From positions 709,728-773,727 of the forward strand of contig NZ_CANMBB010000001.1 of assembly GCF_947495965.1 (NCBI RefSeq): a DNA stretch of 64,000 bases, written 5' to 3'. Of the stretch, positions 17,402 to 59,709 are shown one piece after another. Below the pieces are notes generated by a model. It saw nothing but the letters and a program-made list of their open reading frames with translations, did not search any database and was not told the DNA's origin. Position numbers and translations under genes: made by a program. The DNA is from an uncultured Maribacter sp. (GTDB taxonomy: Bacteria; Bacteroidota; Bacteroidia; Flavobacteriales; Flavobacteriaceae). The first letter of the stretch is position 1. The number at the start of each line of letters is the position of its first letter.

Positions 17402-17422
17402 TACCTAAATATATCAAGAAAA

Positions 17423-19084: not shown

Positions 19085-19128
19085 ACCTGTAGAACTTATC
19101 TTTTTAAATTATTAGATAAGCTGTTTTT

Positions 19129-20616: not shown

Positions 20617-20634
20617 AATTAAATTAATATGAGA

Positions 20635-22293: not shown

Positions 22294-22304
22294 ATTATTA
22301 AGGT

Positions 22305-24074: not shown

Positions 24075-24161
24075 TCTATTCTATTATTAAGTAGCTATTT
24101 TAACTTTAAAAAATAAACAGTGTCTTCTCTTTATTTAATAATTTATTGTTTGTGACAATAA

Positions 24162-24191
24162 AGCCAAGTAGTTAGTTATTCCTACTTGGCT
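24162..24191 (-). terminator. Hairpin terminator or attenuator after susD
   Basis: AGCCAAGTAG (24162-24171) and CTACTTGGCT (24182-24191) form a 10-bp stem with a 10-nt loop; on the minus strand it is followed by TTTATTGT. It sits in the 152-bp gap between susD and the GH36 gene, so it may lower enzyme-gene expression relative to the more abundant SusCD, or end the transcript. Confidence 0.7.
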
Positions 24192-24226
24192 ATATCAACT
24201 CAACAAACCAAAACTATAATATTGTA

Positions 24227-25804: not shown

Positions 25805-25823
25805 AATTGATATTTTTTTATTA

Positions 25824-33751: not shown

Positions 33752-33796
33752 CAAAGAGGATAGCTTATTAAGTTAAAAACGTAAAAAATTAGAAAA

Positions 33797-35341: not shown

Positions 35342-35364
35342 TTCACCTAAAAAATCGCAAAAAA

Positions 35365-36813
35365 ATGAAAAATTATATAAATAATAAATTCAGCAAGTAT
35401 CTTTTTGCTATAACCATTCCTTTAGGAATAGCAATAAGTTGTACGCCAGAATCTAATATTAAAGATGGTATTAAAGAAATAAGCTTTAAACCAACAGCCA
35501 GTACCACTTTAATTACAGAAGGAGAAACTATAAAATATCAAGATTCTTCCCTTAATGTAAGTAAAAGAATTTGGACTTTTGAAGGAGGTAATATAGAAAC
35601 TTCAGATGAGGAAATTATAGAAATTACTTATGATGAAGCATCAGAAATTAACGAAGGAACCCCAGTCGGCTATGTAACCACACTAGAGGTAACGCATGAA
35701 GATGGTTCCATTACAAAAAATTCGTTTAAGGTAGATGTATATAACCATATAAAACCAGAGTTTAGTGCTGATAAAAATGCTGCATTAATGGGTTCCGAAA
35801 TCTCATTTACTAACCTTTCAGAATACACCGAATCTAAATGGGAAGATGCTCAAGAAAAAGACCAATATTTTTGGTCTTTCCCAGGTGGTATTCCAGAAAC
35901 TAGTACCGAAGAAAACCCAAAGGTAATATACCCTACTACTGGAGATTATCCGGTTGCTTTAGCAATTTTTCGTTCCGCACCAGAAGATAAAGCTTTAATC
36001 GTAAAAGAAGATTTTATTAAAATTGTAGATGTACAAGTAATTGGTTCTACTAGTAATAGATTAGCAGAGTTAGGTTCTAAAATATTTTTATCATACGATG
36101 CAGATTTACAGCCTACAGATGCAGAAAAATTTACAGTTATGGTAGATGATACCGCAGTAAACATTTCTTCTGTTAATGTAAAGTCAGATGATACTATAAC
36201 TTATGAAATTATATTAGAAACTCCTGCTGTAGATAACCAAACAATTACACTAAATTACGAGGGTGGAGATTTTGCTGCTAGCGGAGAACTTTTAGGGCCA
36301 ATAGTAGATTTGGCAATAGAAAATAATGTAGTTAACCTATTAAAAGATAAAAACCCTGGTTTTGAATCTGATGGACCAGGTGGCTTTCCTGGTACTGGCT
36401 GGGGTAACTGGGATGGCACTGCAAATAACCCAGAAGTATATGCTGTTATAGATACCGACAAACATAGTGGAAATAATAGTTTACAAATAACTATGGACGG
36501 TACAGGAACAGGCTGGATTCTTAATACTACAGGTCATGAAGCTGTAGAAGAGGGCGAGTATAGATTAAGCATATGGGCAAAAGCATCTGTAGATGGTATT
36601 CCTTTAGATTTTAGATCGGTAACACCAAACTGGTCTAATGTACATACTGCTAATGAAACATTAACAACAGAATGGACAGAATATACGTTAGAATTCTCTA
36701 CCGTTGGCGATGAAAATCTTAACAGAAATTACTGGCACGTTCTTAGGCCAAATGAAGCTGCTAATGGGGTACAGGTTTTTATAGATGATGTATCTTTATA
36801 CAGAATAGATTAA
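35365..36813 (+). CDS. SusE-position PKD/CBM lipoprotein
   Basis: 482 residues. The signal ends in an IAISC lipobox. Two PKD-like domains follow (about 30-120, with RIWTFEGGNIETSDEE; about 125-200, with FWSFPGGIPETSTEENP and TTGDYPVALAIF). Next comes an Ig-like segment, then a C-terminal jelly-roll of the CBM4/9 type (about 310-482) with YRLSIWAKA and VQVFIDDVSLYRID. It occupies the SusE/F position and is expected to be a surface glycan-binding protein. A homologue of the same architecture is at 50062-51672. Confidence 0.75.
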   Translation: MKNYINNKFSKYLFAITIPLGIAISCTPESNIKDGIKEISFKPTASTTLITEGETIKYQDSSLNVSKRIWTFEGGNIETSDEEIIEITYDEASEINEGTPVGYVTTLEVTHEDGSITKNSFKVDVYNHIKPEFSADKNAALMGSEISFTNLSEYTESKWEDAQEKDQYFWSFPGGIPETSTEENPKVIYPTTGDYPVALAIFRSAPEDKALIVKEDFIKIVDVQVIGSTSNRLAELGSKIFLSYDADLQPTDAEKFTVMVDDTAVNISSVNVKSDDTITYEIILETPAVDNQTITLNYEGGDFAASGELLGPIVDLAIENNVVNLLKDKNPGFESDGPGGFPGTGWGNWDGTANNPEVYAVIDTDKHSGNNSLQITMDGTGTGWILNTTGHEAVEEGEYRLSIWAKASVDGIPLDFRSVTPNWSNVHTANETLTTEWTEYTLEFSTVGDENLNRNYWHVLRPNEAANGVQVFIDDVSLYRID

Positions 36814-36837
36814 ATATAAAACATATTAAAAAATTAT

Positions 36838-36871
36838 AAGGTCTATTTGAATTTTCAAATAGACCTTTTTT
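36838..36871 (+). terminator. Intrinsic terminator
   Basis: AGGTCTATTTGA (36839-36850) and TCAAATAGACCT (36855-36866) form a 12-bp stem with loop ATTT and a T-run. It separates the SusCD-CBM genes from the FG-GAP gene that starts 30 nt later, so that gene is reached by read-through or has its own promoter overlapping the terminator. Confidence 0.85.
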
Positions 36872-36901
36872 ATTAAATTACTTGTATAACTTATTACTGT
36901 A

Positions 36902-39900
36902 ATGAAAAAACACTCACTTTTAATTGCTCTTTTAATAAGTTGTAATACTATATTCTTCAACTGTAAAAAAAGAACTAAAAACTCTATAGAAACTAAAACT
37001 GAAGTTTTTGAAAACAACTTATTCTATCTTATATCTCCAGAACAAAGTGGTGTTACTTTTAATAACCATATAGAAGAAAACTTTAAAAACTTTTTTGCCA
37101 TATTTAATTATGTATATAATGGTGCTGGAATTGCTGTTGGAGATATTAATAATGATGGCCTTTCTGATATTTATTTTGTAGGCAATGAAGTGCCAAATAA
37201 ACTTTATTTAAACAAAGGAGATTTTAAATTTGAAGACATTTCTATAAGTGCAAAAGTTAGTAATAATAAAGGGTGGCATAATGGTGTTGTAATGGTCGAT
37301 ATAAATGGAGATAATTTACAAGATATATATGTTTGCCGTGGTGGTTACAATGATACCGATGAGGATAGAGAAAACCTACTCTACATAAACCAAGGAGATA
37401 CTACATTTAAAGAAGAGGCAAAAAAATATGGCATAAATGATAATGGGTATTCCATAATGGCTTCTTTTTTTGATTTTGATAAGGATAACGATTTAGACCT
37501 TTATGTAACTAACAGACCAAATAAATTTTTTCTAGGCTATCAGCAAGTCCTCCAAGGAAAACAAAAAGAAGAAGATTTATTTCGTGATAAATTATATGAA
37601 AATGTAAATGGCACCTATGTAGAAGTTAGTATTAACGCTGGTATAAAAAATAATTTTGGGTATGGGTTAGGCTTAGCTACTACAGACATTAATAGTGACG
37701 GAAATACTGATATTTTTGTTTCTAACGATTATTTAGAGAAAGATTATTTATATATAAATCAAGGAAATAAACAATTTAAAGAAAAATTAACCTCTCATTT
37801 TAACCATATTCCATTTTATGCCATGGGAGTTGATGTTGTCGATTTTAATAATGACGGTTTTGAAGATATAATACAATTAGAAATGTCTCCTGAAGATTAT
37901 GAGAGGTCTAAAACAACCATGGCCTCTATGAATACAAAGCTTTTTAATGACATGACCACAAATGGGTTTCACTACCAATACATGCATAACCATTTACATC
38001 TTAATAGAGGCAATGGTATTTTTAGTGATATTTCACAGCTATCAGGAGTAGCTAAAACAGATTGGAGTTGGGCCTGCCTAGGTAGCGATTTTGATAATGA
38101 TGGTTATAGAGATCTTTATATTACGAATGGCTTTAAAAGGGATATATGGGATAAAGACGCCAATAAAGCGTTTAGGCAATTTATGCAAAGCCAACAAGCA
38201 CGAAAAAATACTAATGAACAAAATGCACGGCATATAACTAACCTATTTAAAGAAAACAAAATTCCAAATTATATTTATAAAAACAATGGAGATTTAACAT
38301 TCACCAAAAAAACTAAAGAATGGGGTGTACATCAAAGTAGCTTTTCTAATGGTGCCGCCGTTGCAGATTTAGACAATGATGGAGATCTAGACATCATTGT
38401 AAACAACATCAATCAGCCAGCATTTATATATAAAAACAACGCAGAAAAATTAGATAACAATTTTATAAAGCTAAAACTAAAAGGCCCAAAAAAAAATAGT
38501 AATGGTTTGGGTGCTAAAATAACTTTATACTATAATAATAAAATACAATTTCAAGAATTTAAAACTGTACGTGGTTATTTATCTTCTGTAGAGCCTATAG
38601 TACACTTTGGCCTTGGAAAAAAGAAAATAATAGATAGTATCCACGTAAGATGGAATGACAATAAAAATCAGGTAATTTCAAACATAAATACCAATCAACT
38701 AATAAGTATTAATTACACAGATGCTAAAGTTTCATCTAAAAAAATAGGTTCTACTACTACCCTAGTATCAGAAAAAACAAAAAATCTACTAACACCACCC
38801 TATATTCATAAAGAAAATGAGTATAATGATTTTAAAGATCAAATATTATTGCCTCATAAATTATCGCAGAACGGTCCGTGTTTATCTGTTACTGATATTA
38901 ATAATGATGGCCTAGAAGATTTTTACATTGGTGGCGCTTCCGGACAAGCTGGAGCTATATATACGCAAACTAAAAAAGGAGCTTTTAAAAAGTTACACCA
39001 AAACTCTTTTTTAATAGACAAAGAAAAAGAAGATGTTGGCGCGGTTTTCTTTGATGCAGATGGTGATAATGATCAAGATTTATATGTAGTAAGCGGTGGG
39101 TATGAGTTTGCTATAAATGATTCTCTGTTACAAGACAGACTATATCTTAACAACGGAGAAGGTATTTTCTCTAAGTCTAAAAGCCTCCCTAAATTACATA
39201 AAAGTGGTTCTGTTGTAATTCCATTAGACTATGATAAAGATGGCGATTTAGATTTATTTGTTGGTGGTAGATTAATTCCTAAAAGTTACCCCTCTACCCC
39301 CAATAGCTATTTGCTAAAAAATGAAAACGGAAAATTTATAAATGTAACATCTAGTGTAGCACCAACAATCTCTAAAATTGGCATGGTAACTTCTGGTACT
39401 TGGAATGATATTGATGGCGACAATACTAATGAACTTATCTTAGTTGGAGAATGGATGCCTATTACTATTTTTAAAATAACCAACGGAGTATTTACAAATG
39501 TCACCAAATCTTATAACCTAGAAAACACAAATGGTTGGTGGAATAAAATTGTTCCTTCAGATTATGATAAAGATGGAGATGTAGACTTTATTGTAGGAAA
39601 CTTAGGTCTAAATTATAAATTTAAGGCTAGCCCAAAAAATCCTTTTTTAGTTTACGCTAATGATTTTGATAAAAATGGGACTAATGACATTTTTTTAGCT
39701 AAAAAGTATAAAAATAGAGAAGTACCAATAAGAGGACTACAATGCACCTCTGAACAAATGCCAACAATTGCTAAAAAGTTTAAAAGTTATTCTGAATTTG
39801 CAAAGGCAGATATAAAAGAAATAGTTGGTGATAATTTAAGTTCTGGAAATGTATTGCAGGCTAAAGAATTTGCAAGTGTAATTTTAGAAAATAATAATGG

Positions 39901-40234
39901 CGTATTTACTATTAAAAAACTTCCTGCCGAAGCTCAATTTTCTGTAATAAACGGTATTGTTGTTCATGATTTTAATAAGGATAATATTCTAGATATATTG
40001 GTTGCTGGTAATAAGTTTGAAGTAGAAATAGAAACCACTAGAGCTGATGCCTCTATAGGTTTGCTCTTATTAGGAACAGAACAAGGAATCTTTGAACCTA
40101 TGAATTACCTTAATAGTGGCTACAATATGCCTTTTAATGTAAAAGATGTTAAAAAAATAAATATTGGAACTACTAAAGCTGGCATACTAACAGCCATTAA
40201 TAATAACAGTTTAAAATTTCATCTTATTAATTAA
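36902..40234 (+). CDS. FG-GAP/VCBS-repeat lipoprotein with ASPIC/UnbV domain
   Basis: 1110 residues, paralogous along its whole length to the protein at 14096-17401. The signal ends near IFFNC (lipoprotein). FG-GAP blades carry calcium-type loops (DINNDGLSDIYF, DFDKDNDLDLYV, DYDKDGDLDLFV), with an ASPIC/UnbV domain in the middle (VRGYLSSVEPIVHFGLG). It is expected to be surface-exposed; its function is unestablished. It closes the second SusCD cluster and converges on the hybrid regulator with only 8 nt between stop codons and no terminator. Confidence 0.8.
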   Translation: MKKHSLLIALLISCNTIFFNCKKRTKNSIETKTEVFENNLFYLISPEQSGVTFNNHIEENFKNFFAIFNYVYNGAGIAVGDINNDGLSDIYFVGNEVPNKLYLNKGDFKFEDISISAKVSNNKGWHNGVVMVDINGDNLQDIYVCRGGYNDTDEDRENLLYINQGDTTFKEEAKKYGINDNGYSIMASFFDFDKDNDLDLYVTNRPNKFFLGYQQVLQGKQKEEDLFRDKLYENVNGTYVEVSINAGIKNNFGYGLGLATTDINSDGNTDIFVSNDYLEKDYLYINQGNKQFKEKLTSHFNHIPFYAMGVDVVDFNNDGFEDIIQLEMSPEDYERSKTTMASMNTKLFNDMTTNGFHYQYMHNHLHLNRGNGIFSDISQLSGVAKTDWSWACLGSDFDNDGYRDLYITNGFKRDIWDKDANKAFRQFMQSQQARKNTNEQNARHITNLFKENKIPNYIYKNNGDLTFTKKTKEWGVHQSSFSNGAAVADLDNDGDLDIIVNNINQPAFIYKNNAEKLDNNFIKLKLKGPKKNSNGLGAKITLYYNNKIQFQEFKTVRGYLSSVEPIVHFGLGKKKIIDSIHVRWNDNKNQVISNINTNQLISINYTDAKVSSKKIGSTTTLVSEKTKNLLTPPYIHKENEYNDFKDQILLPHKLSQNGPCLSVTDINNDGLEDFYIGGASGQAGAIYTQTKKGAFKKLHQNSFLIDKEKEDVGAVFFDADGDNDQDLYVVSGGYEFAINDSLLQDRLYLNNGEGIFSKSKSLPKLHKSGSVVIPLDYDKDGDLDLFVGGRLIPKSYPSTPNSYLLKNENGKFINVTSSVAPTISKIGMVTSGTWNDIDGDNTNELILVGEWMPITIFKITNGVFTNVTKSYNLENTNGWWNKIVPSDYDKDGDVDFIVGNLGLNYKFKASPKNPFLVYANDFDKNGTNDIFLAKKYKNREVPIRGLQCTSEQMPTIAKKFKSYSEFAKADIKEIVGDNLSSGNVLQAKEFASVILENNNGVFTIKKLPAEAQFSVINGIVVHDFNKDNILDILVAGNKFEVEIETTRADASIGLLLLGTEQGIFEPMNYLNSGYNMPFNVKDVKKINIGTTKAGILTAINNNSLKFHLIN

Positions 40235-45218: not shown

Positions 45219-48200
45219 ATGAAAAAACAAAAATTAAAACTTATTAGAGCAAATGCTTTGCTGCTGTTTCTATTTCTAGGAATAGGCTGGGTGCATGCGC
45301 AAGAAACAATTTCCGGTGTAATTACAGACGATCAAAAAATTCCTTTAGCTGGAGTTACCGTTATTGTTAAAGGCACCAATAATGGAGCAGTCTCGGATTT
45401 TGACGGAAATTATTCTATTTCTGCCACGGCTGGCGAGACTCTATTATTTTCGTATCTAGGTTTTAAGAACATAGAACGTGTTGTAACAGCTGACACAAAA
45501 ACTCTAAACCTTGCAATGCAAGAAGACTCTCAAGCCTTAGATGAGGTAATTGTTGTTGGGTACGGAACCCAAAAGAAAAAGGAAGTAACTGGTGCTGTTG
45601 CTAAAGTAGCTTCTGATGAATTAGTAAAAGTTGCTGTATCTGATATTGGTGCTGCCATACAAGGTAAAGTAGCTGGGGTAAACATCCAAGCTGCAAGTGG
45701 GCGTCCGGGTGAAGCTTCTAACGTGCAAATTCGTGGATTAGTTTCTTTAAACGGAGGAGAGCCATTATATGTAGTAGATAATATCCCACAAGAGGGTAAT
45801 CCTAATTTGGCTCCAGAACAAATTGAGTCTATCGATATTCTTAAAGATGGTGCATCAGCTTCTATTTATGGAGTGCGTGGTGCAGGAGGTGTAATTTTGA
45901 TTACAACAAAACGTGGTAAAAAAGGTAAAATGAAGGTAGATGTAAATATGTTTACAGGTATCCAAAACATTACTTCGGGAACTGCATTATCAAACACTAC
46001 CGATTATCTCTACGTTAGGGAGACTTCTGAGGAAGTAAATGGTACTGAGCCACAAACATTTAGAATAAATTCTAACGCCTTAGATTGGGATACGAATTTT
46101 GTTGATGAAGTACTAAACGATAATGCTGTTGTACAAAATTTTAATGTAAACTTATCTGGAGGTACAGAAAACCTAACCTACAATTATAATACTACGTATT
46201 ACAAGCAAGAAGGTACTTTAATCAATTCAGATTTTGATCGTTTAACAAACCGTATTACTGGGCAATTTACTAAAGGAAGATTTAAAGCTTTTGCATCTGC
46301 TAGTTTAACAACAGAAAATCGTAAACAAGAACCTTGGAATATCTTTGGATTTGCTATAGGTAACCCTCCTCACACTGCTCCTTTTAGTGCATTTGAAACC
46401 GATGGTCAAAATACAGTACAATTAGATGATGTGGATAACGCAATATTTTATGGCTTCTTAGCACGTCAGCTAGATAATACTGATGATAGAGAAAATAGAA
46501 GCAATAGTATTTCTTTAAATGCGGAGTACGAAATTTTAGATGGATTGAGTTACAAATTAAATATTGGTCGTAATGAAGGTCAAAATTTTAGAAAATTCTT
46601 TCAGCCTCAGTATTTAGCTTTCGACCGTAATGGAGATCCGGTTGTATCCGGTTCCACACCACAGGCCACTTTGCAATACAATCAGTGGTTTTCTAAAAGA
46701 GAGACTATAGAACACATTTTAAATTATAAAAAATCCTTTGGAAAGCATAATTTAGATTTCTTAGCAGTTGCCTCTTATGAAAAATACCAATTCAGAACCC
46801 TGAATACAGGTACGGTTTTTGCTGAGGATGCATCTAATGATGTACAGGTATTAAATGCAGGAGCCAGCCCAATTACTCCAAGTGAAAATAGAAATGCCAA
46901 TACTTTGGCAGGTAAATTAGGTAGAATACAATACAATTATGATGGCAAGTATCTTTTTAGTGCCAGTCTAAGACGTGATGGTTCTTCTAAATTTCCTACA
47001 AAGAGTAGATACGAAAACTTCTATGGTTTTTCAGCAGGATGGAATGTAAGTGATGAAGAATGGTTTAATGTAGATGCTATTAGCAATTTAAAAATTCGTG
47101 GTAGTTGGGCACAAGTAGGATTTAACGGTATTAATGATTATGCATTTATACCCGTAATCGAATCAGGGGTCAACTATCCTTTTGGTGTCGATGAAAATTT
47201 ACAAAACGGTTTAGTGCAACGTAGATTTGCAAACCCTGATGTACAATGGGAAACTCAAGTTTCTTCCAATATTGGTTTTGAGTTGGGCATGTTTAACAAT
47301 AAGTTAAACATTACAGCAGATGTTTATAAAAATGACAAGGAGAATATGTTACTTAATGAACAAACTGCTCCCTCCGCTGGTTTGTGGCAACCGCGAGCAA
47401 CAAATGTATACGGTTCTATACCAGTCAATACTGGTAACATGGTAAATAAGGGTGTTGAGGTTGCTGTTAACTATAAAGGTACAATAGGTGACGATTTTAA
47501 ATTTGGAATTTCTGGAACTTGGACGCTGAACGATAACAAGATTACCAATTTAAATGGTAAAATACTTGGTCCTAATGGAGGTAGAATCAGGAATTTTGAT
47601 GGTAGTACTAGTAATCTTGCAACAACTATTTTAAGATTAGGAAATCCGGCTGGGTCTTTCTATTTATACCAACATGATGGCGTTATTAAAACACCGGAAG
47701 AATTGGCTGAGTACCAAGCCCTAAATACATCAACTATTGGTTCTCCTGAATTGGGAGATATAAAGTTTAAAGATGTTAATGGTGATGGTGCCATTAATGA
47801 TTTGGATCGTGTATTCTCTGGTTCTGGTATTCCACAATGGGAAGCTGGTTTAAATCTTGACTTTGGCTATAAAAATTGGGATTTTTCGGTTCAAGGTTAT
47901 ATGGCTTATGGTACAGAAATATATAATGGTAATAAGGTGCTGGCTTATCAGGGAGGGCGTCATCAAGATCAAGTTTTTCAATGGACTCCACAGAATTCAA
48001 ACTCTGATATTCCTACCCATAGAGGTAACCAACACTTTAACGTACAACCATTTTCAGATTGGTTCTTAGAAGATGGTACGTATTTGCGAATTAGAGCCAT
48101 GTCTTTAGGATTTACTGTTCCGAACACACAAGATTATGGATTAGAAAAAATTAGATTATACTTATCTTCTGTAAATCCGTTTACGTTTACCAATTATACG

Positions 48201-48308
48201 GGTTATGATCCTGAGGTAGGTGGTAATAATCTATTTGAGAGAGGAGTAGATAATGGAAATTATCCAATCGCTCGTCAGTTTATGATGGGAGTTCAATTAA
48301 GTTTCTAA
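45219..48308 (+). CDS. SusC/RagA-type TonB-dependent transporter
   Basis: 1029 residues. It has a signal peptide ending GWVHAQ, a CarboxypepD-like extension (ISGVITDDQKIPLAGVTVIVKGT), TonB-box-like DEVIVVGYGT, a plug with QIRGLVSLNGGEPLYVVDN and DGASASIYGVRGAGGVILI, then a barrel ending VQLSF. It is the first gene of a SusC-SusD-CBM operon lying between the HTCS and the GH117/GH16 enzymes, so neo-agaro-oligosaccharides or related red-algal galactan fragments are the likely cargo (inference from position). Confidence 0.93.
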   Translation: MKKQKLKLIRANALLLFLFLGIGWVHAQETISGVITDDQKIPLAGVTVIVKGTNNGAVSDFDGNYSISATAGETLLFSYLGFKNIERVVTADTKTLNLAMQEDSQALDEVIVVGYGTQKKKEVTGAVAKVASDELVKVAVSDIGAAIQGKVAGVNIQAASGRPGEASNVQIRGLVSLNGGEPLYVVDNIPQEGNPNLAPEQIESIDILKDGASASIYGVRGAGGVILITTKRGKKGKMKVDVNMFTGIQNITSGTALSNTTDYLYVRETSEEVNGTEPQTFRINSNALDWDTNFVDEVLNDNAVVQNFNVNLSGGTENLTYNYNTTYYKQEGTLINSDFDRLTNRITGQFTKGRFKAFASASLTTENRKQEPWNIFGFAIGNPPHTAPFSAFETDGQNTVQLDDVDNAIFYGFLARQLDNTDDRENRSNSISLNAEYEILDGLSYKLNIGRNEGQNFRKFFQPQYLAFDRNGDPVVSGSTPQATLQYNQWFSKRETIEHILNYKKSFGKHNLDFLAVASYEKYQFRTLNTGTVFAEDASNDVQVLNAGASPITPSENRNANTLAGKLGRIQYNYDGKYLFSASLRRDGSSKFPTKSRYENFYGFSAGWNVSDEEWFNVDAISNLKIRGSWAQVGFNGINDYAFIPVIESGVNYPFGVDENLQNGLVQRRFANPDVQWETQVSSNIGFELGMFNNKLNITADVYKNDKENMLLNEQTAPSAGLWQPRATNVYGSIPVNTGNMVNKGVEVAVNYKGTIGDDFKFGISGTWTLNDNKITNLNGKILGPNGGRIRNFDGSTSNLATTILRLGNPAGSFYLYQHDGVIKTPEELAEYQALNTSTIGSPELGDIKFKDVNGDGAINDLDRVFSGSGIPQWEAGLNLDFGYKNWDFSVQGYMAYGTEIYNGNKVLAYQGGRHQDQVFQWTPQNSNSDIPTHRGNQHFNVQPFSDWFLEDGTYLRIRAMSLGFTVPNTQDYGLEKIRLYLSSVNPFTFTNYTGYDPEVGGNNLFERGVDNGNYPIARQFMMGVQLSF

Positions 48309-48319
48309 AAAAAATAACT

Positions 48320-50050
48320 ATGAAATCAATGAATAAAATAATAATAAAAAGTCTTGCTCTTCTTGCGCTAGTTATTACTAGTTGTAACGAAAGCACATTT
48401 TTAGACGAACAAAATCCAAATGCGCTTACAGAAGCTAATTTTTGGAAAACAGAGACCCATTTTAATTCTGCGCTTACTACAGTGTATGGTGCTTTACAAA
48501 ACCGAGGGGTAAGTGGTTCTGAATTGGTTCAGGAATTCGTACTAGGAGATATAGCCGGTACGCAACCTTGGTATCGTCCTGCTCCTTTCAGAAATTTAAC
48601 GTATAATAACGCTCAAAATCACGTTACTAACAAGTGGGAAGAGTTGTATCTGGGTGTTTTTAGAGCAAATACCATACTTACTCAGTTAGAACGAGTTGAG
48701 GAAGATACTTTAAATGATGAGGCTAAAGCAAAAATTGAAGGGGAAGTGAGATTTTTGAGAGCGTTCTTTTATTTCCAAATTGTACACACCTATGGGGGTG
48801 CAATGATACATGATGGAGTTGCTCAAACGTTGGCAGAATTGAATCAACCATTATCAAGTACTGCTGAAGTTAATACACAGATAATTATTCCAGATCTTGA
48901 ATTTGCAATGAACAACTTGCCAGAATCATGGGAAGCAGATCAAGTAGGTAGAGCTACATGGGGAGCGGCAACATCAATGTTAGGTAAAGTATATTTGTAT
49001 GACCAACAATGGGATAAAGCAGCAACTTTATTCAAAGAAGTAATAGATTCTGGTATATACGATTTAACACGTAATATTGAAGATAATTTTACGCACTTTA
49101 ACGAGTTTAATGAAGAATCTATTTTTGAAGTAAACTTTTCGTTCGATTTAGTGCCAGGAGCTGGCGGTGCTTTTAAAGACGATACTACAACTGGCGTTAT
49201 AGGATCTGAGGCAACTGCCATTTCTAATGAAATAGGAACTCTTAATCATGGTGCTTTTAACACAGTTTTGACTTCGTATAGTTTACATGAGTTGTTAGTG
49301 CATGACGAGGTAGATCCAAACAACCCAATTAACGACGGTAATTTAGAATCGCGTAGAATGAATTATACCATTGCTCCAAGAAACGGGGAAGGGGATTATT
49401 ATTTAGAACCATTTGCTGAATCACCAGCTGCATGGGGTGGTGGAATAAGTGCCTTCGTAAAAAAACATTCTAACTGGTATCATATGGAAACAGAACCTCT
49501 AATGGGACGTAGTGGAATAAACTTTAGACATATTCGTTATGCCGATATTCTATTAATGTATGCTGAAGCAATAATCAATGATAGTGGTGATTTTATGACA
49601 GCCATTCAATATATTGATATGGTAAGAAGTCGTGCAGGTGTATATACTTTACAGCAATATATGGATATGAATGGTGGACAGTTTCCAGCGTTTCACGTGA
49701 GTCCTCAAGTTAATGGTGGGAACCTAACTTTTGTTGATCCTAATGCGCAAACAGTAATGGAACATATTCGAAAAGTAGAACGAAAAATAGAGCTTTGTTT
49801 TGAAGGACATCGTTACAAAGATTTAGTTCGTTGGGGTATTGTTAAAGAGGTTTTTGACGAATTACGTGCTGATGAAGTTTGGCGTGAGGAGAACTTGGAT
49901 GTTTCGGGTGAAGGTCAAGCACCTTTATTTATATCAGGATTTGTTCGACCAGATTTTGTGTTGTCTGCTGATAACTACCAATCCGAACAACACGACTATT
50001 TCCCAATTCCTACAGGAGAAGCGTTAAACAATCCAAATATCAATAATTAA
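48320..50050 (+). CDS. SusD/RagB-type surface glycan-binding lipoprotein
   Basis: 576 residues. The N-terminus MKSMNKIIIKSLALLALVITSC is a lipoprotein signal. SusD motifs: VRFLRAFFYFQIVHTYGGAMI, FRHIRYADILLMYAEAIIND and ELCFEGHRYKDLVRWGIVKE. It is somewhat longer than the other two SusDs here because of an insertion around 280-400. It starts 11 nt after its susC. Its ligand probably matches the neighbouring GH117/GH16 enzymes. Confidence 0.9.
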   Translation: MKSMNKIIIKSLALLALVITSCNESTFLDEQNPNALTEANFWKTETHFNSALTTVYGALQNRGVSGSELVQEFVLGDIAGTQPWYRPAPFRNLTYNNAQNHVTNKWEELYLGVFRANTILTQLERVEEDTLNDEAKAKIEGEVRFLRAFFYFQIVHTYGGAMIHDGVAQTLAELNQPLSSTAEVNTQIIIPDLEFAMNNLPESWEADQVGRATWGAATSMLGKVYLYDQQWDKAATLFKEVIDSGIYDLTRNIEDNFTHFNEFNEESIFEVNFSFDLVPGAGGAFKDDTTTGVIGSEATAISNEIGTLNHGAFNTVLTSYSLHELLVHDEVDPNNPINDGNLESRRMNYTIAPRNGEGDYYLEPFAESPAAWGGGISAFVKKHSNWYHMETEPLMGRSGINFRHIRYADILLMYAEAIINDSGDFMTAIQYIDMVRSRAGVYTLQQYMDMNGGQFPAFHVSPQVNGGNLTFVDPNAQTVMEHIRKVERKIELCFEGHRYKDLVRWGIVKEVFDELRADEVWREENLDVSGEGQAPLFISGFVRPDFVLSADNYQSEQHDYFPIPTGEALNNPNINN

Positions 50051-50061
50051 AATAGCTAGAT

Positions 50062-51672
50062 ATGAAACAAAATAAATTTTTAAGCATGCTCTTTGTCATG
50101 AGTCTACTATTTGTAGCTTGCGAAGAGCAAGAAGATTTGAATATAAATGATGTAAGCCATCGCATTATTGTAACATCAGAACAAGACTTTTCTAATACAA
50201 TAAACGTTGGTGCAGATATTGATTTCGGTGATATTTCAAGAGGTGTTGAATCTAGAATATGGACACTTCCAAGCAATGGAAGTATTATTTCTGGAGGAAG
50301 TGGTACTACTTCATCTGAAAAAGTTATTAAGGCAGTTTTTAATAAAGCAGGAGTTTACGATGTTATCTTAAACCAAAAGTTTAAAGGAAATGTTTTTCGT
50401 AATGATGATAGTACAGAGCCAAGCGATACTAGAGAGTTAGATACAACCATTGTAGTAACCGTAATAGATTCAATTACTTCAGTATTAAAGGCCTATCGAG
50501 TTAATGAAGATGGTAGTACTGGCACGGAACTAAATTTAGCAGATAACGCAGAACATGAACTAGAAGCGAGTAACTCCATTCGTTTGAGTTATACCGCAAT
50601 TGGAGAGCCTCAAAATGTAAATTGGTCTTCTGAAGGTGGTAATCCTAAATTACTTCCGCAAGAGGAAACAGATGATTTTGTAGATATGAAATTTAGTAAG
50701 TTAGGTTCTTGGGATTTACAATACATAGCTGATAGATTTCGTCCTACCGATGCCGATACCCTTTTCTATGAAAAATTAATAAAGGTGATTCCTTCTACAG
50801 AACCAGTTACTTTAGATAGACTTTTTCAAGTAGATGATAAAATTGGTTTAGAGTTCAGTAGAGAAATTGATGACGCTACAGTTAACGCTGGTGATTTTAC
50901 AGTTAGAATAGAAAACAATAAGGATGCAATGAATCCTATTGTACTTAACCCTTCAGTTGTATCTGCTACTGTGGATAGTGATGAAGCAACCATAATTTTT
51001 CTTGAATTAGACGGCACACCATTTTATATTGACGATCTAGTTTATGTAACCTATACACCTGGTAGTTTAACAACTACTGATGAAGTTGCTTCTGATCCTA
51101 TTATTGATGCACAAGTGACTGAGTTCCCAACTCCAGAAAACCTTTTTGTTTCTAATGGTGTTGATTATAGTTTTGAATCTACCACAGCTAATGGCCCTGA
51201 AAGTGGCGGAGGCGACTGGCCATACCAAGGTTGGGGAGGCAACTGGGGTGAATATGATATACAAATTAATGCAAATCTTGCATTTGAAGGAGCTCAAGGT
51301 ATGTCTATAAATTTTAGACCTAATGGAGGAATGATTATTTCCGCTAATACAGAATTTCCAGTAGAAGGTGGAAAAACGTATGAAATTAGCTATTGGCTAT
51401 ATTTAGAAGATCCAATTCCTAATGCTCCGGTAGATAATGCAGCATCAGATATTAGATTTTATGATGCTAGCTGGAATTATTCAGATGTAGTTGGTACAGT
51501 TTTTGAATCGTCCATGCCAACTGGTGAATGGATTTACCAAAGTGCAACTTTCATACCTGGTAATACTGCAAATTCAAAGTTCTTAATAAGAGGACAAAAC
51601 GCGAACTATGCCAGTCCTATTAAGTTTTTTATCGACGGGATGGCGTTAAGGCAACTTAACGTAAGACCATAA
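50062..51672 (+). CDS. SusE-position PKD/CBM lipoprotein
   Basis: 536 residues. MKQNKFLSMLFVMSLLFVAC is a lipoprotein signal. The mature protein begins with a PKD-like domain (ESRIWTLPSNGSIISGGSG, AVFNKAGVYDVIL), then Ig-like domains (about 200-350), and ends in a CBM4/9-type jelly-roll (about 370-536: YEISYWLYLED, TGEWIYQSATF, KFFIDGMALRQLNVRP). It starts 11 nt after susD. The same architecture is found at 35365-36813. A decayed copy of its C-terminal end lies just downstream. Confidence 0.75.
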   Translation: MKQNKFLSMLFVMSLLFVACEEQEDLNINDVSHRIIVTSEQDFSNTINVGADIDFGDISRGVESRIWTLPSNGSIISGGSGTTSSEKVIKAVFNKAGVYDVILNQKFKGNVFRNDDSTEPSDTRELDTTIVVTVIDSITSVLKAYRVNEDGSTGTELNLADNAEHELEASNSIRLSYTAIGEPQNVNWSSEGGNPKLLPQEETDDFVDMKFSKLGSWDLQYIADRFRPTDADTLFYEKLIKVIPSTEPVTLDRLFQVDDKIGLEFSREIDDATVNAGDFTVRIENNKDAMNPIVLNPSVVSATVDSDEATIIFLELDGTPFYIDDLVYVTYTPGSLTTTDEVASDPIIDAQVTEFPTPENLFVSNGVDYSFESTTANGPESGGGDWPYQGWGGNWGEYDIQINANLAFEGAQGMSINFRPNGGMIISANTEFPVEGGKTYEISYWLYLEDPIPNAPVDNAASDIRFYDASWNYSDVVGTVFESSMPTGEWIYQSATFIPGNTANSKFLIRGQNANYASPIKFFIDGMALRQLNVRP

Positions 51673-52005: not shown

Positions 52006-53598
52006 CTAAAAATTTGCCATAAATTTAGCAAGGTTTGTTCCTTTTTCTAAATTTAATTTTTTTCTTAATCTATACCTAGAGGTATGTGCACTTTCTATTG
52101 TAATACCCAACAAAGAAGACATTTCTTTACTAGAAAAACCTAGTTTAAGTAAAGCACATAACTTTAAATCTGTTTGACTTAAGTTTGGATATTTTTTTCT
52201 CATGTTTTTATAAAAATTTTGGTTAACAGAAATAAACCTAGTCTCAAACTCTTTCCAGCTATCGCCAATAGAGTTTTGAAAGCTATTAACCATACTATGA
52301 ATTGCTCTAACGTCAATAGCATCATTCTTGGCAATACTATTTTTTAATTTAATTATAAACTCTTCTTTTTCTATTAATTGTAATACTGAAGTCGTAAGCT
52401 CTCTATTTTTTAACTTCATAACTTCATTAATCTTCTCTTTTTCTAAATTATTTTTTCTCCTTAAATTCCTAAAAAAAAGCATCCCATACAGTAGTAAAAA
52501 AACAAAAGCAGCTGCCATTAAAATGTTTCGTAAAAAACTAATCCTTTTTTGACTTTCAAGTTCTTGAATCTTGGCTTCATTAAGCATTTCTAATTCCTTT
52601 TCTTTTTGTAATCTGTATTTATCTTTTATCTCTATTAAATGCTTGTTATTTTTACTATTAAGCCCAAATATTTTTTCATTTAACTCTTCTGCTTTCTTTT
52701 TAAATTCAAATGCCTCTTTATAATTACCTTTATTAGAATACAATTTTGATAAAATATTATAATTAAATAATTTGTATCCTAAATGCTTATTATACTTTTC
52801 AGAAAAAGAAAGGGAGTTTTTAAAAGAATTTATTGCTTGTGTTGTATCTCCATTTAATGTATATATTTCACCAAACAAATAATAAATAACTGTTAAGTAT
52901 GAAGGGTCATTTTTTTCAAAAAACTCTTTAGCATTATTTAATTTACTAAGAGACTCATTATAGTTTCCTTTTACGACTGCATTATAATAAGCCGCTTCGG
53001 ACTCTACATAAAATGATTTTTCATAGGGACTTATTTTTTTTAGCGATAGCATACAGCTATCTAAATAAACTTTAGCCATTTTTAAGTTATTGTTTATACG
53101 ATAACAATTAACAATTGCATAATAATTACTAACTAAATAATCAACTCCTATTTTATTTTCCTTAACCAACTCTTTTTTAAGCCTTAAAGATTTATTAAAA
53201 TAATCTAAAGATTCTTCCTCTCTTCTGTAAGAATTATACAACCATCCTAATTCTCTATAAATCATAGACTTAGAAATATTATCGTTAGACAAATCGGCAA
53301 GAATTAATGCATCCCAATAACCATCATAGGATTTTCCATAATCTAGTATATTACTGTAAAGTGCAGAAAGTTGGCAAATACTATTTATAAGATTTAAAGT
53401 GTCATTTTCTTTACGATAAAAATCAATTCCACTATTTAAATAATAAACAGCACTATCTATGTTTTTCTCTGTTAAATGCTTAGCCTTTTCTATATATTTA
53501 TTAGTAACATAAGGTTCTTGACCATTTATGTACATACAAAATATGCAAAAAATAATACTAAACATTTTTTGTAAACTCATACCCTTTTTCATAGCCAT
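52006..53598 (-). CDS. TPR membrane regulator with LuxR-type HTH
   Basis: 530 residues. An N-terminal signal-like segment (IIFCIFCMYINGQEP) is followed by five or more TPR-like repeats (about 30-330, for example LYSNKGNYKEAFEFKKKAEELNE), one membrane span near 351-373 (LMAAAFVFLLLYGMLFF), a coiled-coil linker and a C-terminal helix-turn-helix of the LuxR kind (about 470-528: LCALLKLGFSSKEMSSLLGI, SRYRLRKKL). This makes a one-protein periplasm-to-cytosol sensor, common in Flavobacteriia. It is transcribed divergently from the GH117 genes and may control them. Confidence 0.8.
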   Translation of the reverse strand: MAMKKGMSLQKMFSIIFCIFCMYINGQEPYVTNKYIEKAKHLTEKNIDSAVYYLNSGIDFYRKENDTLNLINSICQLSALYSNILDYGKSYDGYWDALILADLSNDNISKSMIYRELGWLYNSYRREEESLDYFNKSLRLKKELVKENKIGVDYLVSNYYAIVNCYRINNNLKMAKVYLDSCMLSLKKISPYEKSFYVESEAAYYNAVVKGNYNESLSKLNNAKEFFEKNDPSYLTVIYYLFGEIYTLNGDTTQAINSFKNSLSFSEKYNKHLGYKLFNYNILSKLYSNKGNYKEAFEFKKKAEELNEKIFGLNSKNNKHLIEIKDKYRLQKEKELEMLNEAKIQELESQKRISFLRNILMAAAFVFLLLYGMLFFRNLRRKNNLEKEKINEVMKLKNRELTTSVLQLIEKEEFIIKLKNSIAKNDAIDVRAIHSMVNSFQNSIGDSWKEFETRFISVNQNFYKNMRKKYPNLSQTDLKLCALLKLGFSSKEMSSLLGITIESAHTSRYRLRKKLNLEKGTNLAKFMANF

Positions 53599-54029: not shown

Positions 54030-55247
54030 ATGAAATTAAGAAGAAGCATTATTTTCCTGTCCTTTATTACAACGTTAATTACGATTAGTTCTAGTGCACA
54101 AATTAACTCCCCAACTAAGGTAAATAATATAGACTTTTCTAAAATAACTCAGGAACAAATAGACCATTTAGGTATAACAGATATAAACCATTTAAGTGCA
54201 GCATCTAAAAGAGCCTTAATGTGGCCTACAGATCTTGGAAATGATTGGTTTGTAGAATTTTCTAACTTAAGTCCATTAAAAGGAGATTTAGCCTATGAAG
54301 AAGGTGTTGTACGTAGAGACCCTAGCGCTATTATAAAAGAAAACGGAAAATTTTATGTATGGTATTCTAAAAGTACTGGGCCTACACAAGGGTTTGGAGG
54401 CGATGTTGAAAACGACAAAGTATTTCCTTGGGATCGTTGCGATATTTGGTATGCAACATCAAAAGACGGAGAAACTTGGAAAGAAGAAGGCCTAGCGGTA
54501 CCTAGAGGAAAAGCAGGTGCGTATGACGATAGGTCTGTATTTACAGTAGAAATCATGAAACATGAAGACAAATACTATTTGTGCTACCAAACTGTAAAGT
54601 CTCCATATACAGTACGTGTTAAAAACCAAATTGGTTTAGCATGGTCTAATTCTCCTGATGGACCTTGGACAAAAAGTAAAGAGCCAATATTAAGTCCTGC
54701 GGATAATGGCATATGGAAAGGTGAAAAACAAGATAGATTTGCTGTGGAACGCAAAGGTGATTTTGATAGTCATAAAGTACATGATCCTTGTATTATACCT
54801 TACAATGGTAAATTTCATCTTTATTATAAAGGAGAACAAATGGGAGAAGAAATTACATTTGGAGGAAGACAAATACGTCATGGGCTTGCCATAGCAGACA
54901 AACCAGAAGGGCCTTATATAAAGTCTCCTTATAACCCTATTAGTAATAGCGGACATGAAATTTGCGTTTGGCCATACAACGGAGGTATTGCTGCGTTAAT
55001 TACAACTGATGGCCCAGAGAAAAACACCATTCAATGGGCGCCAGATGGTATTAACTTTGAGATAATGTCTGTTATACCAGGAGTTAGTGCTCATGCTATT
55101 GGTTTAAATAGAACCTCCGATAATGAAAAAGAACCTACAGAAATATTACGTTGGGGATTATCTCATATATACAATAGTTGGAATTATCAAAGTATTATGA
55201 GTTATACATCTAAAACAAAAAAACAACACAGAGCTAAAGGAGAATAA
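54030..55247 (+). CDS. ahgA: GH117 alpha-1,3-(3,6-anhydro)-L-galactosidase
   Basis: 405 residues with a signal peptide ending SSSAQ. A five-bladed propeller of GH117 type follows. The three acidic residues known from Zobellia AhgA are present: Asp97 in RRDPSAI, Asp252 in VHDPCIIP and Glu310 in SGHEICVW; the adjacent His309 matches the proposed catalytic acid. The N-terminal helical segment needed for domain swapping in the family dimer ([19 protein letters not shown]) is also there. It removes 3,6-anhydro-L-galactose from the non-reducing end of neoagaro-oligosaccharides, probably in the periplasm. The symbol follows the characterised homologue; the identification rests on recalled family numbering. 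Confidence 0.85.
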
Positions 55248-55310
55248 ATTAAAAAATTAGCTTATAGTTAATAAGGGTAGCATTCTGTGTTTAAAAAAAC
55301 AAACAATATC

Positions 55311-56549
55311 ATGACAGCTAACCTACTAAAAAAAGGTGTTTCATTTATTTTAACACTTATTGTAATAAACTTATTTTCATGTAAAAACAACCATCTAACA
55401 ACCTATGAGAGTTCTTCTTATAAGCGTTTTCGTGAAAATCATATCCATTATGAGAAGTATAATGAATTTAACACCCAGTTTAGTTATAAAAAACTAGAAG
55501 GATTTGATTTTGATAAAGGCATTGAACGTTATTACCCATCTAGTATTATACAAGATGGCGGGCTATATTATATGTGGTACTCTAAACCACAAAAAAACAC
55601 TAAAGTAGTTGGCCCCAATAACGCAACAGATTCTCTAAGAGCTTTTCACTGGGATTTGTGTGATGTATGGTTTGCTACATCTATTGATGGATATAAATGG
55701 GAAGAGCAAGGAATTGCAATTTCTAGAGGTAAAAAAGGGCGCTACGATCATCGTAGCGTTTTTAACCCTGAGATTTTATTTGCAGATGGTAAATATTATC
55801 TAGCATACCAGGCTGCTAAAAGTATAAAAGATGCTCGCTGGTCTAAACTATTTTTAACATCTGGAGATTTTACCCCTAATGTAATTGGCATGTCTGTAGC
55901 AAACTCCCCAGCAGGTCCTTGGGAGCCTCTGGACGAACCCATTTTAAAACCTGGTCCAGAAGATAGCTGGGATGGAGAAGTTATTCATGAACCCACTTTT
56001 ATTGTTAAAGGAGGACAGTATTTTTTATACTACAAAAGTCATAGCCGGTTACCTTGGACTCCTAACATAACATCTGGAAAATATAATAAAAAACATGCCG
56101 ACATTCCCTTAGCAACTGGTGTTGCTATAGCGAACTCTCCTAAAGGACCGTACATTAAATCAAAATATAATCCTGTATTAATGGGAGGGCATGGTAGTAT
56201 GGTTTGGCCATACCGTAATGGTATATGCGCTACATTACCTGAGGGACCAGAAAGAAACAGTATCTTATTTTCTGAAGATGGAATAAATTTTTACCCAGTA
56301 ATACAAGGTGTAACTGTTCCTATGGGCGGCGGTGCCTTTAGGCCTGGGAAATTCACAGATAGCAATAAACAACCAGGACAAGGTATAACATGGGGAATTA
56401 GTCATAAACTATACCCTATGTATCATTTTGTACGCTTTGACTGCGATTTATCTTTAGAGAAAGGCAATAAAATTAAAAAGAAGCACCAAATGGTTAAAGA
56501 TTATATGAAGAGTAAGGAATATAAATATAACCCTCTACTTAAACAATAA
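55311..56549 (+). CDS. GH117-like lipoprotein lacking canonical catalytic residues
   Basis: The track begins at a GTG at 55287; the ATG at 55311 (MTANLLKKGVSFILTL) gives a lipoprotein signal with lipobox LFSC and is preferred (412 residues). Shared blocks with the preceding GH117 include WDLCDVWFATS, GPYIKSKYNP and GITWGISH. The three acidic positions differ: RYYPSS (Tyr75 for Asp97), IHEP (Glu227 for Asp252) and GGHGSM (Gly295 for Glu310), with the His kept. So it is either a surface binder, an enzyme with a shifted mechanism, or one active on another linkage. It follows the true GH117 gene by 63 nt in the same direction. Confidence 0.75.
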   Translation: MTANLLKKGVSFILTLIVINLFSCKNNHLTTYESSSYKRFRENHIHYEKYNEFNTQFSYKKLEGFDFDKGIERYYPSSIIQDGGLYYMWYSKPQKNTKVVGPNNATDSLRAFHWDLCDVWFATSIDGYKWEEQGIAISRGKKGRYDHRSVFNPEILFADGKYYLAYQAAKSIKDARWSKLFLTSGDFTPNVIGMSVANSPAGPWEPLDEPILKPGPEDSWDGEVIHEPTFIVKGGQYFLYYKSHSRLPWTPNITSGKYNKKHADIPLATGVAIANSPKGPYIKSKYNPVLMGGHGSMVWPYRNGICATLPEGPERNSILFSEDGINFYPVIQGVTVPMGGGAFRPGKFTDSNKQPGQGITWGISHKLYPMYHFVRFDCDLSLEKGNKIKKKHQMVKDYMKSKEYKYNPLLKQ

Positions 56550-56657: not shown

Positions 56658-57914
56658 CTATTTATCTTCTAGTTTCCAAGTACGAACCCAATCAACCTTC
56701 ATAGTATTAATTGTATTATCAGCCAAATCATTTTTATCTGCCAACCCTCCTAAGAAACATTCATCAGCAGTCCACAAATCAAAAATAAGCTCTAACTCTA
56801 AAGTAAAATCTTGATTTGTAGTAACTTTTCCTGCAGGCTCGCCATCTAGGTAAAATTGAACGGTACGCTCATCAATCCACCAGCACCCTACAATATGGTA
56901 ATCTTCGTTCCAAGTTTTGTCTTTTTTCGGATTTTCATCAGACAACCATCTTGTATCATAATTATCTTCATGTCTTTCTGTAACTCCGTTTTTAGCTATA
57001 AAATATTGTGAGTTCATTTGTGTTGGAAATAAATTTGTAGTCCATGGAAAATTTGGTGTATTCATAGAAGTATTTACACAATCTTCTGTTGGTTTAGAAT
57101 TATTTTCTACAATATCTATTTCATCTCTATCATCAATATCACCATTATTCATCCAAAAAGTATTAAAAGCAGAGATATGAGCGGTTTTCATACTACATTC
57201 TGTATACATAGGATACTTTATTTTAGTAGTTGAATGAACTCTTGCAGTTTGAAACCAATTTGGATCACTCCTTAATGTTGCCTGAATACAAAGATTACCA
57301 TCTTCTGTATAAGAATTCTCAGACCTCATAAAAACAGGAGTTCCGCCATAATTCCAAAATGAATTATACCACTTTTTTGATGTATCATTTGGATCATTAG
57401 AAATATCCAAAAGACCTTCAAATTCATCTGAAAGAGCATCTACTTTAACCCATTTTTTATCATTTGGAGTGGTATCTTCTATAGATACGAAAGAAGGAAA
57501 ATCAGGATTTATATTTTCAAAAACTTCAGCTGATGGCCCTTGATTTTCAGTTACTTCTATAGCAACTGTAGCTGTAACGCCATTATCATCTTTATCTATT
57601 ATTCTATAGGTAAAACTATCACTTCCAAAAAAGTTAGAATTAGGTACATACTCAAAAACGCCATCACTAACTTCTGTAACATTTCCATTTACAGGAGAGC
57701 TTGCTAAACTATAATTATTTGTATCACCTCCATTGGGTCCAATATTATCATTTACAGACACATCTATTTGGTTATTATCACCAGATTTACTATTCTCTGT
57801 AACAGAAAGAGAATCATCTGCTGCCGTTGGACCACCAGATTCTTCATTAGAATTAGAGGAGCACGAGATAAGTATACTTACAAGGCCAATAATTAGAAAT
57901 GAGTAAGTTTTCAT
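56658..57914 (-). CDS. GH16 lipoprotein, probable beta-agarase or porphyranase
   Basis: 418 residues. It has a lipoprotein signal (LVSILISC), a cadherin-like/tandem-type Ig domain (about 30-122, ending VFEYVPNSNFFGSDSFTYRI), a linker, then GH16 (about 150-416). The catalytic signature DEIDIVEN gives nucleophile Glu265, Asp267 and acid/base Glu270 with the beta-bulge spacing ExDxxE typical of agarases, porphyranases and kappa-carrageenases. The opening VDALSDEFEG is as in GH16 agarases. It should cut internal beta-1,4 bonds of a red-algal galactan at the cell surface. Agar is favoured by the GH117 neighbour and the absence of sulfatases. It forms an operon with the DUF1080 gene upstream (25 nt). 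Confidence 0.8.
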   Translation of the reverse strand: MKTYSFLIIGLVSILISCSSNSNEESGGPTAADDSLSVTENSKSGDNNQIDVSVNDNIGPNGGDTNNYSLASSPVNGNVTEVSDGVFEYVPNSNFFGSDSFTYRIIDKDDNGVTATVAIEVTENQGPSAEVFENINPDFPSFVSIEDTTPNDKKWVKVDALSDEFEGLLDISNDPNDTSKKWYNSFWNYGGTPVFMRSENSYTEDGNLCIQATLRSDPNWFQTARVHSTTKIKYPMYTECSMKTAHISAFNTFWMNNGDIDDRDEIDIVENNSKPTEDCVNTSMNTPNFPWTTNLFPTQMNSQYFIAKNGVTERHEDNYDTRWLSDENPKKDKTWNEDYHIVGCWWIDERTVQFYLDGEPAGKVTTNQDFTLELELIFDLWTADECFLGGLADKNDLADNTINTMKVDWVRTWKLEDK

Positions 57915-57939: not shown

Positions 57940-58839
57940 TTAAAAAAGGTTACTTTGCTCTTGTGTGAGCGAATCTATTTTTCGGATTTTAATATCCTTA
58001 AAAAACACTTCCGCAGCTTCACTCTGTAATTGAATTTTTCCTTGTATTAGAGGTACTTCTTTACCATTTTCATCTATATATCTGGAATCTTTCAAAATCA
58101 TAACAACTTCCCCATTTACGATATGCAAACTTTTCCCTTCATAACAAATCAAGTCAAGTGTATTCCACTCGTCATTGGGTTTTTCATAGTTACCACTTCG
58201 CAAACAATAGTTTTTATACGGACTACCCATACCTATTGGCAAGTACTCTTGCGACTCATGAGCTAAAGGATCCAAAACAGATTCTGGTTTGTAGGCTTTA
58301 ATATCTATAGCAGAATTTGCTTGACTCCAAAAATCTCCAGTATGTCCCTCCATAATCTGAAATTCTTGTGAAAGCATCCATGAACGCCAATATTCTACAG
58401 CCATTGGACCCATAGAATGGTATAAAATACCTGAGTCCTTAAGCAAATCTTTTCTATAAGCCCATTTTTTATCTCCCCACTTATATTGTAATTGAAAATG
58501 ATAGTTTTTATATTCTTTTTTGGTAATTAAACATCCATAATATTCTCCTGTATTCTTAATTATAGTATTACCATCTTCTAAAAAAGTTGTAAAAACATTA
58601 TAAGAGGGGTTGTTTACCCCAATAGGAGCAATTTCTTGCCCTTCTTTATTTTTTGGCACAGAACCGTCATAACCAGGCTGGTGTTGGTAACTTAAATAAT
58701 TATCCCAATGGGTTAAATCTTTATCTATTAATTCTTCCCATTCATATATTTCACTAACACTTTTATTATCTACTTTTTTTAATTGGTTACAAGAGACAAG
58801 AAGTAAAAGTAATGGCAAAATATTTTTAAAAACTTTCAT
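57940..58839 (-). CDS. DUF1080 (3-keto-disaccharide hydrolase-type) lipoprotein
   Basis: 299 residues. MKVFKNILPLLLLLVSC is a lipoprotein signal. The rest is a single concanavalin-like DUF1080 domain: KNYHFQLQYKWGDKKW, LLKDSGILYHSMGP, QEFQIMEGHTGDFWSQ, EWNTLDLICYEGKSLHIVNG and a final EVFFKDIKIRKI. Some members hydrolyse 3-keto-glucosides; others occur in algal-polysaccharide loci with unknown activity. Its place directly upstream of the GH16 gene suggests action on, or binding of, the same galactan. It is the first gene of a two-gene minus-strand operon. Confidence 0.75.
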   Translation of the reverse strand: MKVFKNILPLLLLLVSCNQLKKVDNKSVSEIYEWEELIDKDLTHWDNYLSYQHQPGYDGSVPKNKEGQEIAPIGVNNPSYNVFTTFLEDGNTIIKNTGEYYGCLITKKEYKNYHFQLQYKWGDKKWAYRKDLLKDSGILYHSMGPMAVEYWRSWMLSQEFQIMEGHTGDFWSQANSAIDIKAYKPESVLDPLAHESQEYLPIGMGSPYKNYCLRSGNYEKPNDEWNTLDLICYEGKSLHIVNGEVVMILKDSRYIDENGKEVPLIQGKIQLQSEAAEVFFKDIKIRKIDSLTQEQSNLF

Positions 58840-59160: not shown

Positions 59161-59709
59161 ATGAAAATTTATAATAGTAAGAGTAAAAAAGTAAACAGCT
59201 TTACATCAAAACTTATTTGCAGATATTGCTTCTTTGTAATATTTCTTGGTTTGGGCGCTAATAATGCCTTAGCTCAAAGTACAGATTCTAAAGTTTCAGC
59301 TAAAGAAAATAAAACAGAAGCAAGGGTTACTGGTTTAAAATACATTAGCGTGCACGTTTTAGAACTGGAAAAAACCTTAAAGCTATATCGCGAAATACTG
59401 GGTTTTAAAATGTCTGATGCCGAAGTACTTCATGGGCCAGGACTTGAAGGAATGCTCGTAATGAAACTAAAGGCCGATGACTTAACAATTGGGCTATCGC
59501 TTACGGCTCCAGAATTTATAGATACTATAGGGCCAATAGGAAACACTAACCACAACCACTTTATGTTAAAGGTAAATAACATTGGCCCAATTGGAGACAA
59601 GTTAAAAGAAGAAGGCTATGCGCTGGAAAATGAAAATTACGCTCGTGATAAATACACATTCTTTGTAGGACCTAACGGAGAAATTATAGGTTTATCTGCT
59701 TGGGATTAA
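59161..59709 (+). CDS. Exported VOC/glyoxalase-fold protein
   Basis: 182 residues. After a basic N-terminus, CFFVIFLGLGANNALAQ forms a signal peptide. Residues 57-182 make one VOC domain: GLKYISVHVLELEKTLKLYREILGF, then NHNHFMLKVNNI and KYTFFVGPNGEIIGLSAWD, with His65 and C-terminal Glu as possible metal ligands. VOC enzymes include glyoxalase, dioxygenases and isomerases, usually cytosolic, so export is unusual. It may act on a released sugar aldehyde such as anhydro-galactose, but this is only positional inference. It is a monocistronic gene with its own terminator. Confidence 0.7.
   Translation: MKIYNSKSKKVNSFTSKLICRYCFFVIFLGLGANNALAQSTDSKVSAKENKTEARVTGLKYISVHVLELEKTLKLYREILGFKMSDAEVLHGPGLEGMLVMKLKADDLTIGLSLTAPEFIDTIGPIGNTNHNHFMLKVNNIGPIGDKLKEEGYALENENYARDKYTFFVGPNGEIIGLSAWD

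Follow-up and report, generated by a model that had tools for sequence, protein, structure and literature searches.

The window, a stretch of 64,000 nucleotides from an uncultured Maribacter sp., carries two neighbouring GH117-type genes, here called ORF1 and ORF2, within a PUL (Table 1). Two more SusC/SusD loci are present in the window, at 14096-28847 on the minus strand and at 30461-40234 on the plus strand, each with a 1100-aa FG-GAP/ASPIC-UnbV protein; the former also contains genes for a glycerol-3-phosphate-oxidase-like protein, an FGGY kinase, a symporter and a melibiase-like protein.

Table 1. Positions of the two GH117-type genes, the altered ORF2 codons (BpGH117 numbering) and other genes of the PUL
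Feature	Position	Strand	Basis or remark
ORF1, clade A GH117 (AhgA-type) 3,6-anhydro-alpha-L-galactosidase	54030..55247	+	405 aa; 3p2n match and residue check
ORF2, GH117-like "Y clade" protein; lipobox LFSC	55311..56549 (alternative GTG start 55287)	+	PDB match, alignment, orthologue N-termini
Tyr-Tyr codons for Arg89-Asp90 (Asp90 is the general base)	55530..55535	+	alignment
Asn codon for Thr165	55764..55766	+	alignment
Glu codon for Asp245	55989..55991	+	alignment
Codons of kept His302 (general acid) and Gly for Glu303	56190..56195	+	alignment
Glu codon at the position of Asp320 (His302 partner); Glu already in the sister clade	56241..56243	+	alignment
SusC-type TonB-dependent receptor, same PUL	45219..48308	+	
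SusD-type lipoprotein, same PUL	48320..50050	+	
Conserved PUL lipoprotein; no match in Pfam or PDB	50062..51672	+	
Putative regulator with TPR, conserved in the PUL	52006..53598	-	
GH16 nearest beta-agarase C (ZgAgaC, 6hy3); EIDIVE motif	56658..57914	-	
PF06439 (DUF1080, "3-keto-disaccharide hydrolase") lipoprotein; co-occurs with the Y clade	57940..58839	-	
Exported VOC/glyoxalase-fold protein; co-occurs with the Y clade	59161..59709	+	

ORF1 is an AhgA orthologue with a standard active site. Its top PDB match was AhgA (3p2n; E = 8e-229, about 80% identity), and residue-by-residue checking found Asp97, Asp252, His309 and Glu310 at the exact AhgA positions, as originally predicted. The genome of the window has a second AhgA gene elsewhere (C1 522 kb), the neighbours of which are similar to the agar-induced cluster for L-AnG catabolism described in Z. 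galactanivorans (PMC5613140); the locus in the window is thus a second, different agar-type PUL.

ORF2 has two possible starts, GTG 55287 (420 aa) and ATG 55311 (412 aa), of which the N-termini of its orthologues make the ATG the more likely. Its PDB matches were GH117 proteins only (E = 1e-51 to 1e-59), with a phmmer E-value of 9e-60 over about 320 residues. An AlphaFold model of the protein (pLDDT 86.9, pTM 0.88) was used for a Foldseek search, in which the top 18 matches were all GH117, including the Zg3615 product complex 4u6d. Sequence similarity over the full length and the modelled five-bladed propeller confirm ORF2 as a GH117 protein, and the claim that the propeller scaffold is kept was borne out. 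The SxAxxR motif, a GH117 signature for multimerisation (PMC8152962), reads SSSYKR in ORF2 and SASYKR in its clade, i.e. SxSxxR.

In BpGH117, Asp90 is the general base, His302 is the general acid and is paired with Asp320, and Glu303 possibly tunes Asp90; single mutants of Glu303, Asp90, Asp245, Glu167 and His302 are all inactive (PMC11574756). The alignment at the ORF2 active site is ungapped and unambiguous (RRDP/RYYP, HDP/HEP and GHE/GHG) and revealed, in BpGH117 numbering, the changes R89Y, D90Y, T165N, D245E, E303G and D320E. It agrees with the original prediction of Tyr, Glu and Gly at three catalytic sites with the His kept (Tyr83, Glu235, Gly303 and His302 when numbered from the GTG start), and adds R89Y, T165N and D320E, the last with a one-residue deletion, to the changes noted before. 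The general base position is occupied by Tyr in 22/22 members of the ORF2 clade, and Glu and Gly stand in place of Asp245 and Glu303; the Glu that follows the deletion at 320 leaves a carboxylate there. The general acid His302 is invariant in the clade (GGHG), and His244, Gln180, Lys260, a Trp near position 128 and an acid at 167 are also retained in ORF2. Since the general base is gone, standard GH117 activity appears very unlikely for ORF2, and from the inactive BpGH117 mutants at Asp90, Asp245, Glu303 and His302 (PMC11574756) ordinary activity would not be expected. To call the active site lost, as was done at first, is nevertheless too strong, as the general acid and the carboxylates at 245 and 320 stay; judged from the aligned residues, the fixed replacement set looks more like a site that was rebuilt than one that was lost. 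GH130-like phosphorolysis (missing base), raised by a weak NCBIfam match, was rejected as the match was far below the cut-off and ORF2 is exported.

Sequence searches brought the ORF2 clade (the Y clade) to 22 distinct members, all of which carry the identical set YYNEGE at positions 89/90/165/245/303/320. The same six positions read RDTDEE in 3/3 sister proteins (L043, L044 and L074), and RDTDE followed by D or N in 27/27 other GH117 proteins. Chance substitutions or an assembly error were rejected on these counts. Asn at the Asp320 position was seen in some other GH117 paralogues (L045:1245-2531, L017:1459-2748 and L049:7417-8739).

Whole-genome searching of 400 genomes of the family found a sharply bounded set of orthologues, with 73-78% identity in four genomes in addition to that of the window; the next matches had 58-60% identity in two genomes, followed by a drop to 43%. 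When named genomes were scanned, 20 loci with 67-78% identity came up, in Maribacter, Zobellia uliginosa and russellii, Flavivirga, Algibacter, Lutibacter, Aquimarina, Cellulophaga, Jejuia, Agaribacter marinus and a Pirellulaceae MAG, and one more clade member came from a search of the genus Zobellia. One scan peptide held the GHG residues, which is a possible bias, but the whole-protein searches (the 400 genomes and the genus Zobellia) agree. Searches of Bacteroidota (396 genomes, E 1e-80) and of 296 genomes from the order to which Agaribacter belongs added no clade members. The clade is found mostly in Flavobacteriia, with one gammaproteobacterium and one planctomycete MAG. The members L069 and L064, from Agaribacter (Gammaproteobacteria) and the Pirellulaceae MAG, where the gene is located on a short contig with a transposase, likely reflect horizontal transfer or, in the case of the MAG, a binning error.

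The Y clade was monophyletic with 100/100 support, and its SH-aLRT value remained 100 when the trait columns were removed. The sister group of three has 54-60% identity to ORF2 and shares with it the one-residue deletion, Glu at 320 and the inserts; unlike ORF2, it has the base and all other GH117 acids intact. Because this group keeps R/D/T/D/E, the change occurred once: on this tree the residue set has a single origin, in a lineage whose ancestor still had its acids, and only D320E is older. The tree contradicts the idea that ORF2 is a recent duplicate of AhgA.

Median dN/dS over unsaturated pairs of the clade was 0.084. Columns changed and then fixed made up 4/9 of the active-site columns and 5/70 of the others (Fisher p = 0.008), in a test of few columns that was confined to those conserved elsewhere and in two sister proteins, with the active-site list taken from the literature. 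The YYNEGE set is held by purifying selection after its origin, and ORF2 is probably no decaying copy but a protein kept for a new role in the breakdown of agar.

The contrast drawn originally between a lipoprotein signal in ORF2 and a plain signal peptide in ORF1 is real in the window, yet it is not general. A Cys at the signal end was found in about 13 of the 22 clade members, and the other nine have a plain signal peptide with no lipobox; a lipoprotein signal was therefore rejected as a feature of the clade. A Cys also stands at the end of the signal in the Zobellia AhgA 3p2n. The conserved lipid anchor expected of an SGBP is thus missing, and since surface anchoring does not belong to what the clade has conserved, a periplasmic role is favoured over that of an obligate surface glycan-binding protein. 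The clade proteins are predicted to be exported to the periplasm or outer membrane. Regarding the proposal of "a surface binder or a new activity", the general line holds, the loss of the general base making standard activity very unlikely; the surface-binder half is weakened by the nine members without a lipobox.

A cluster comprising SusC, SusD, the lipoprotein, the TPR regulator, AhgA, ORF2, GH16, DUF1080 and VOC genes was found in the window, in Maribacter, in two Zobellia loci and in L055, and in a third Zobellia AhgA lies directly upstream of the clade gene. The clade gene is encoded with SusC/SusD in the window, L051, L052, L053 and L055, and not in most others; in L059, L063 and L068 it accompanies the DUF1080/VOC pair in other gene orders. 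In most loci examined it stands apart from AhgA, the PUL and the DUF1080/VOC pair, which restricts the support from operon structure, and the neighbourhoods of these lone genes were mostly housekeeping, with no substrate clue. In the three lone-gene genomes examined (L078, L079 and L080), the SusCD/GH16/DUF1080/VOC cluster was present elsewhere in the genome. A true AhgA was found in 20/20 searchable clade genomes (19 and the window's own). A close DUF1080 orthologue was present in 19/20 clade genomes, compared with 4/27 of the GH117-bearing genomes that lack the clade (p = 2e-8), and a VOC orthologue in 20/20 and 4/27, respectively (p = 1e-9), both p-values ignoring phylogeny. The DUF1080 lipoprotein and the exported VOC protein recur together alongside AhgA and/or the Y-clade gene, and may perform an uncharacterised step in agar breakdown.

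Compared with GH117 clade A (AhgA/Zg4663 3p2n, BpGH117 4ak5 and BuGH117B 5ta7), ORF2 is alike in the five-bladed propeller, the pocket with the His general acid, Lys260/Gln180/His244 and the agar-type PUL. It differs in having 37-45% identity, replacements of Asp90, Asp245, Glu303, Thr165 and Arg89, and different loops, including two inserts common to ORF2 and the sister clade. The Zobellia paralogues Zg3615 (4u6d, product complex) and Zg3597 (4u6b) have the same fold, and ORF2 is about equally close to these as to clade A; Zg3615 and the relatives grouped with it keep R/D/T/D/E, and ORF2 falls in a separate clade with 100% support.

Taken together, we lean towards ORF2 representing a maintained, GH117-derived five-bladed propeller subfamily with a repurposed pocket and altered chemistry on agar-type oligosaccharides. 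The kept acid machinery, the carboxylates at 245 and 320 and the fixed Tyr, Glu and Gly favour a repurposed, possibly catalytic pocket, so that a new activity on agar-type oligosaccharides appears more likely than pure binding. Invariance of the pocket residues is equally expected of a binding protein, and a serious, though less probable, alternative is a non-catalytic pseudoenzyme that binds or senses oligosaccharides in the periplasm or at the outer membrane, with the GH117 pocket serving as a lectin-like site. The loss of the base and of two further essential positions, the invariant pocket, which fits ligand recognition, and the lipobox in about 13/22 members, which fits an SGBP-like role, are all consistent with this; the retained His acid, acidic partner and carboxylate at 245 argue against it (though D320E predates the clade), as do the 9/22 members with no lipid anchor and the position of the clade gene apart from the SusCD pair in most genomes.

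GH117 enzymes are swapped dimers, and ORF2 could heterodimerise with AhgA and modulate it. The pairing of AhgA with the clade gene (in the window, in Maribacter, at two Zobellia loci, in L055 and in the third Zobellia), the presence of AhgA in all clade genomes searched and the nearly kept dimer motif agree with such a regulatory partner. We consider it improbable, as ORF2 has about 37% identity to AhgA and a different N-terminal region, the clade gene is mostly unlinked to AhgA, and the clade is no recent AhgA duplicate. Even less credit can be given to an ordinary neoagarobiose hydrolase that tolerates the substitutions: it would share the fold, the His acid and an AhgA-type operon, but single changes at these positions inactivate BpGH117 (PMC11574756) and a true AhgA is always present too. 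A pseudogene or decaying duplicate, suggested by the loss of catalytic residues, was rejected as scarcely credible, given the intact ORF in all members, a dN/dS of about 0.08 and a residue set invariant across genera and phyla.

For the favoured repurposed pocket, we infer location, substrate class, catalysis and a Tyr mechanism. On one branch, the canonical inverting machinery (base Asp90, Asp245, Glu303, Thr165 and Arg89) was lost and a new pocket fixed, made up of Tyr-Tyr, Asn, Glu, the kept His general acid, Gly and a Glu beside the His. The protein would share an oligosaccharide pathway with AhgA, the AgaC-like GH16 and the DUF1080 and VOC proteins, and may act on non-reducing-end residues of agar-type oligosaccharides beyond the reach of AhgA, i.e. 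substituted or modified units. As the base holds the water in an inverting enzyme, a Tyr at the base site could bring its phenol close to C1; the Tyr90 phenol would then occupy the site of the catalytic water or a point close to it, with Gly303 giving room. Activated by Glu245, the Tyr might serve as nucleophile or base, with His302/Glu320 as acid. Whether the inverting glycosidase thereby gave way to different bond-breaking chemistry is a tentative and rather doubtful proposition; this would be either a retaining mechanism with a Tyr/Glu nucleophile replacing Asp and water, or a Tyr/His elimination on agar oligosaccharides, in concert with the co-occurring DUF1080 and VOC proteins. Sialidases (GH33 and others) use a Tyr/Glu nucleophile, and they have, as ORF2, a Tyr and Glu pair in a propeller pocket; they are six-bladed and unrelated, and offer a mechanistic analogy for Tyr90 as a putative nucleophile.

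According to the 2015 family paper, as cited in PMC11574756, the active-site His, Asp and Glu are conserved throughout GH117 with two exceptions only, and the portion of PMC6950322 that describes extra GH117 clades in Zobellia gives no residue analysis. A fixed Tyr/Glu/Gly subclade was not found described in the papers searched, among them PMC11574756 and PMC6950322. The Y clade departs from the GH117 conservation rule as a whole subfamily and in one fixed pattern, its sister group retaining the ancestral acids; with these two groups, one can test directly how a glycosidase gave rise to a new activity or binding role. It also points to an uncharacterised step in complex-agar breakdown, possibly with the DUF1080 and VOC proteins. 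On family similarity alone, Y-clade genes would be misannotated as neoagarobiose hydrolases.

In the sister group, a GH2 gene adjoins in two loci, and sulfatase, GMC oxidoreductase and KduI genes are nearby in one. In the latter (L074:3465-14124, Zobellia), the sister-clade GH117 with intact acids is clustered with a sulfatase-like gene, a GMC oxidoreductase and a KduI-type isomerase, which suggests a substrate other than agarose.
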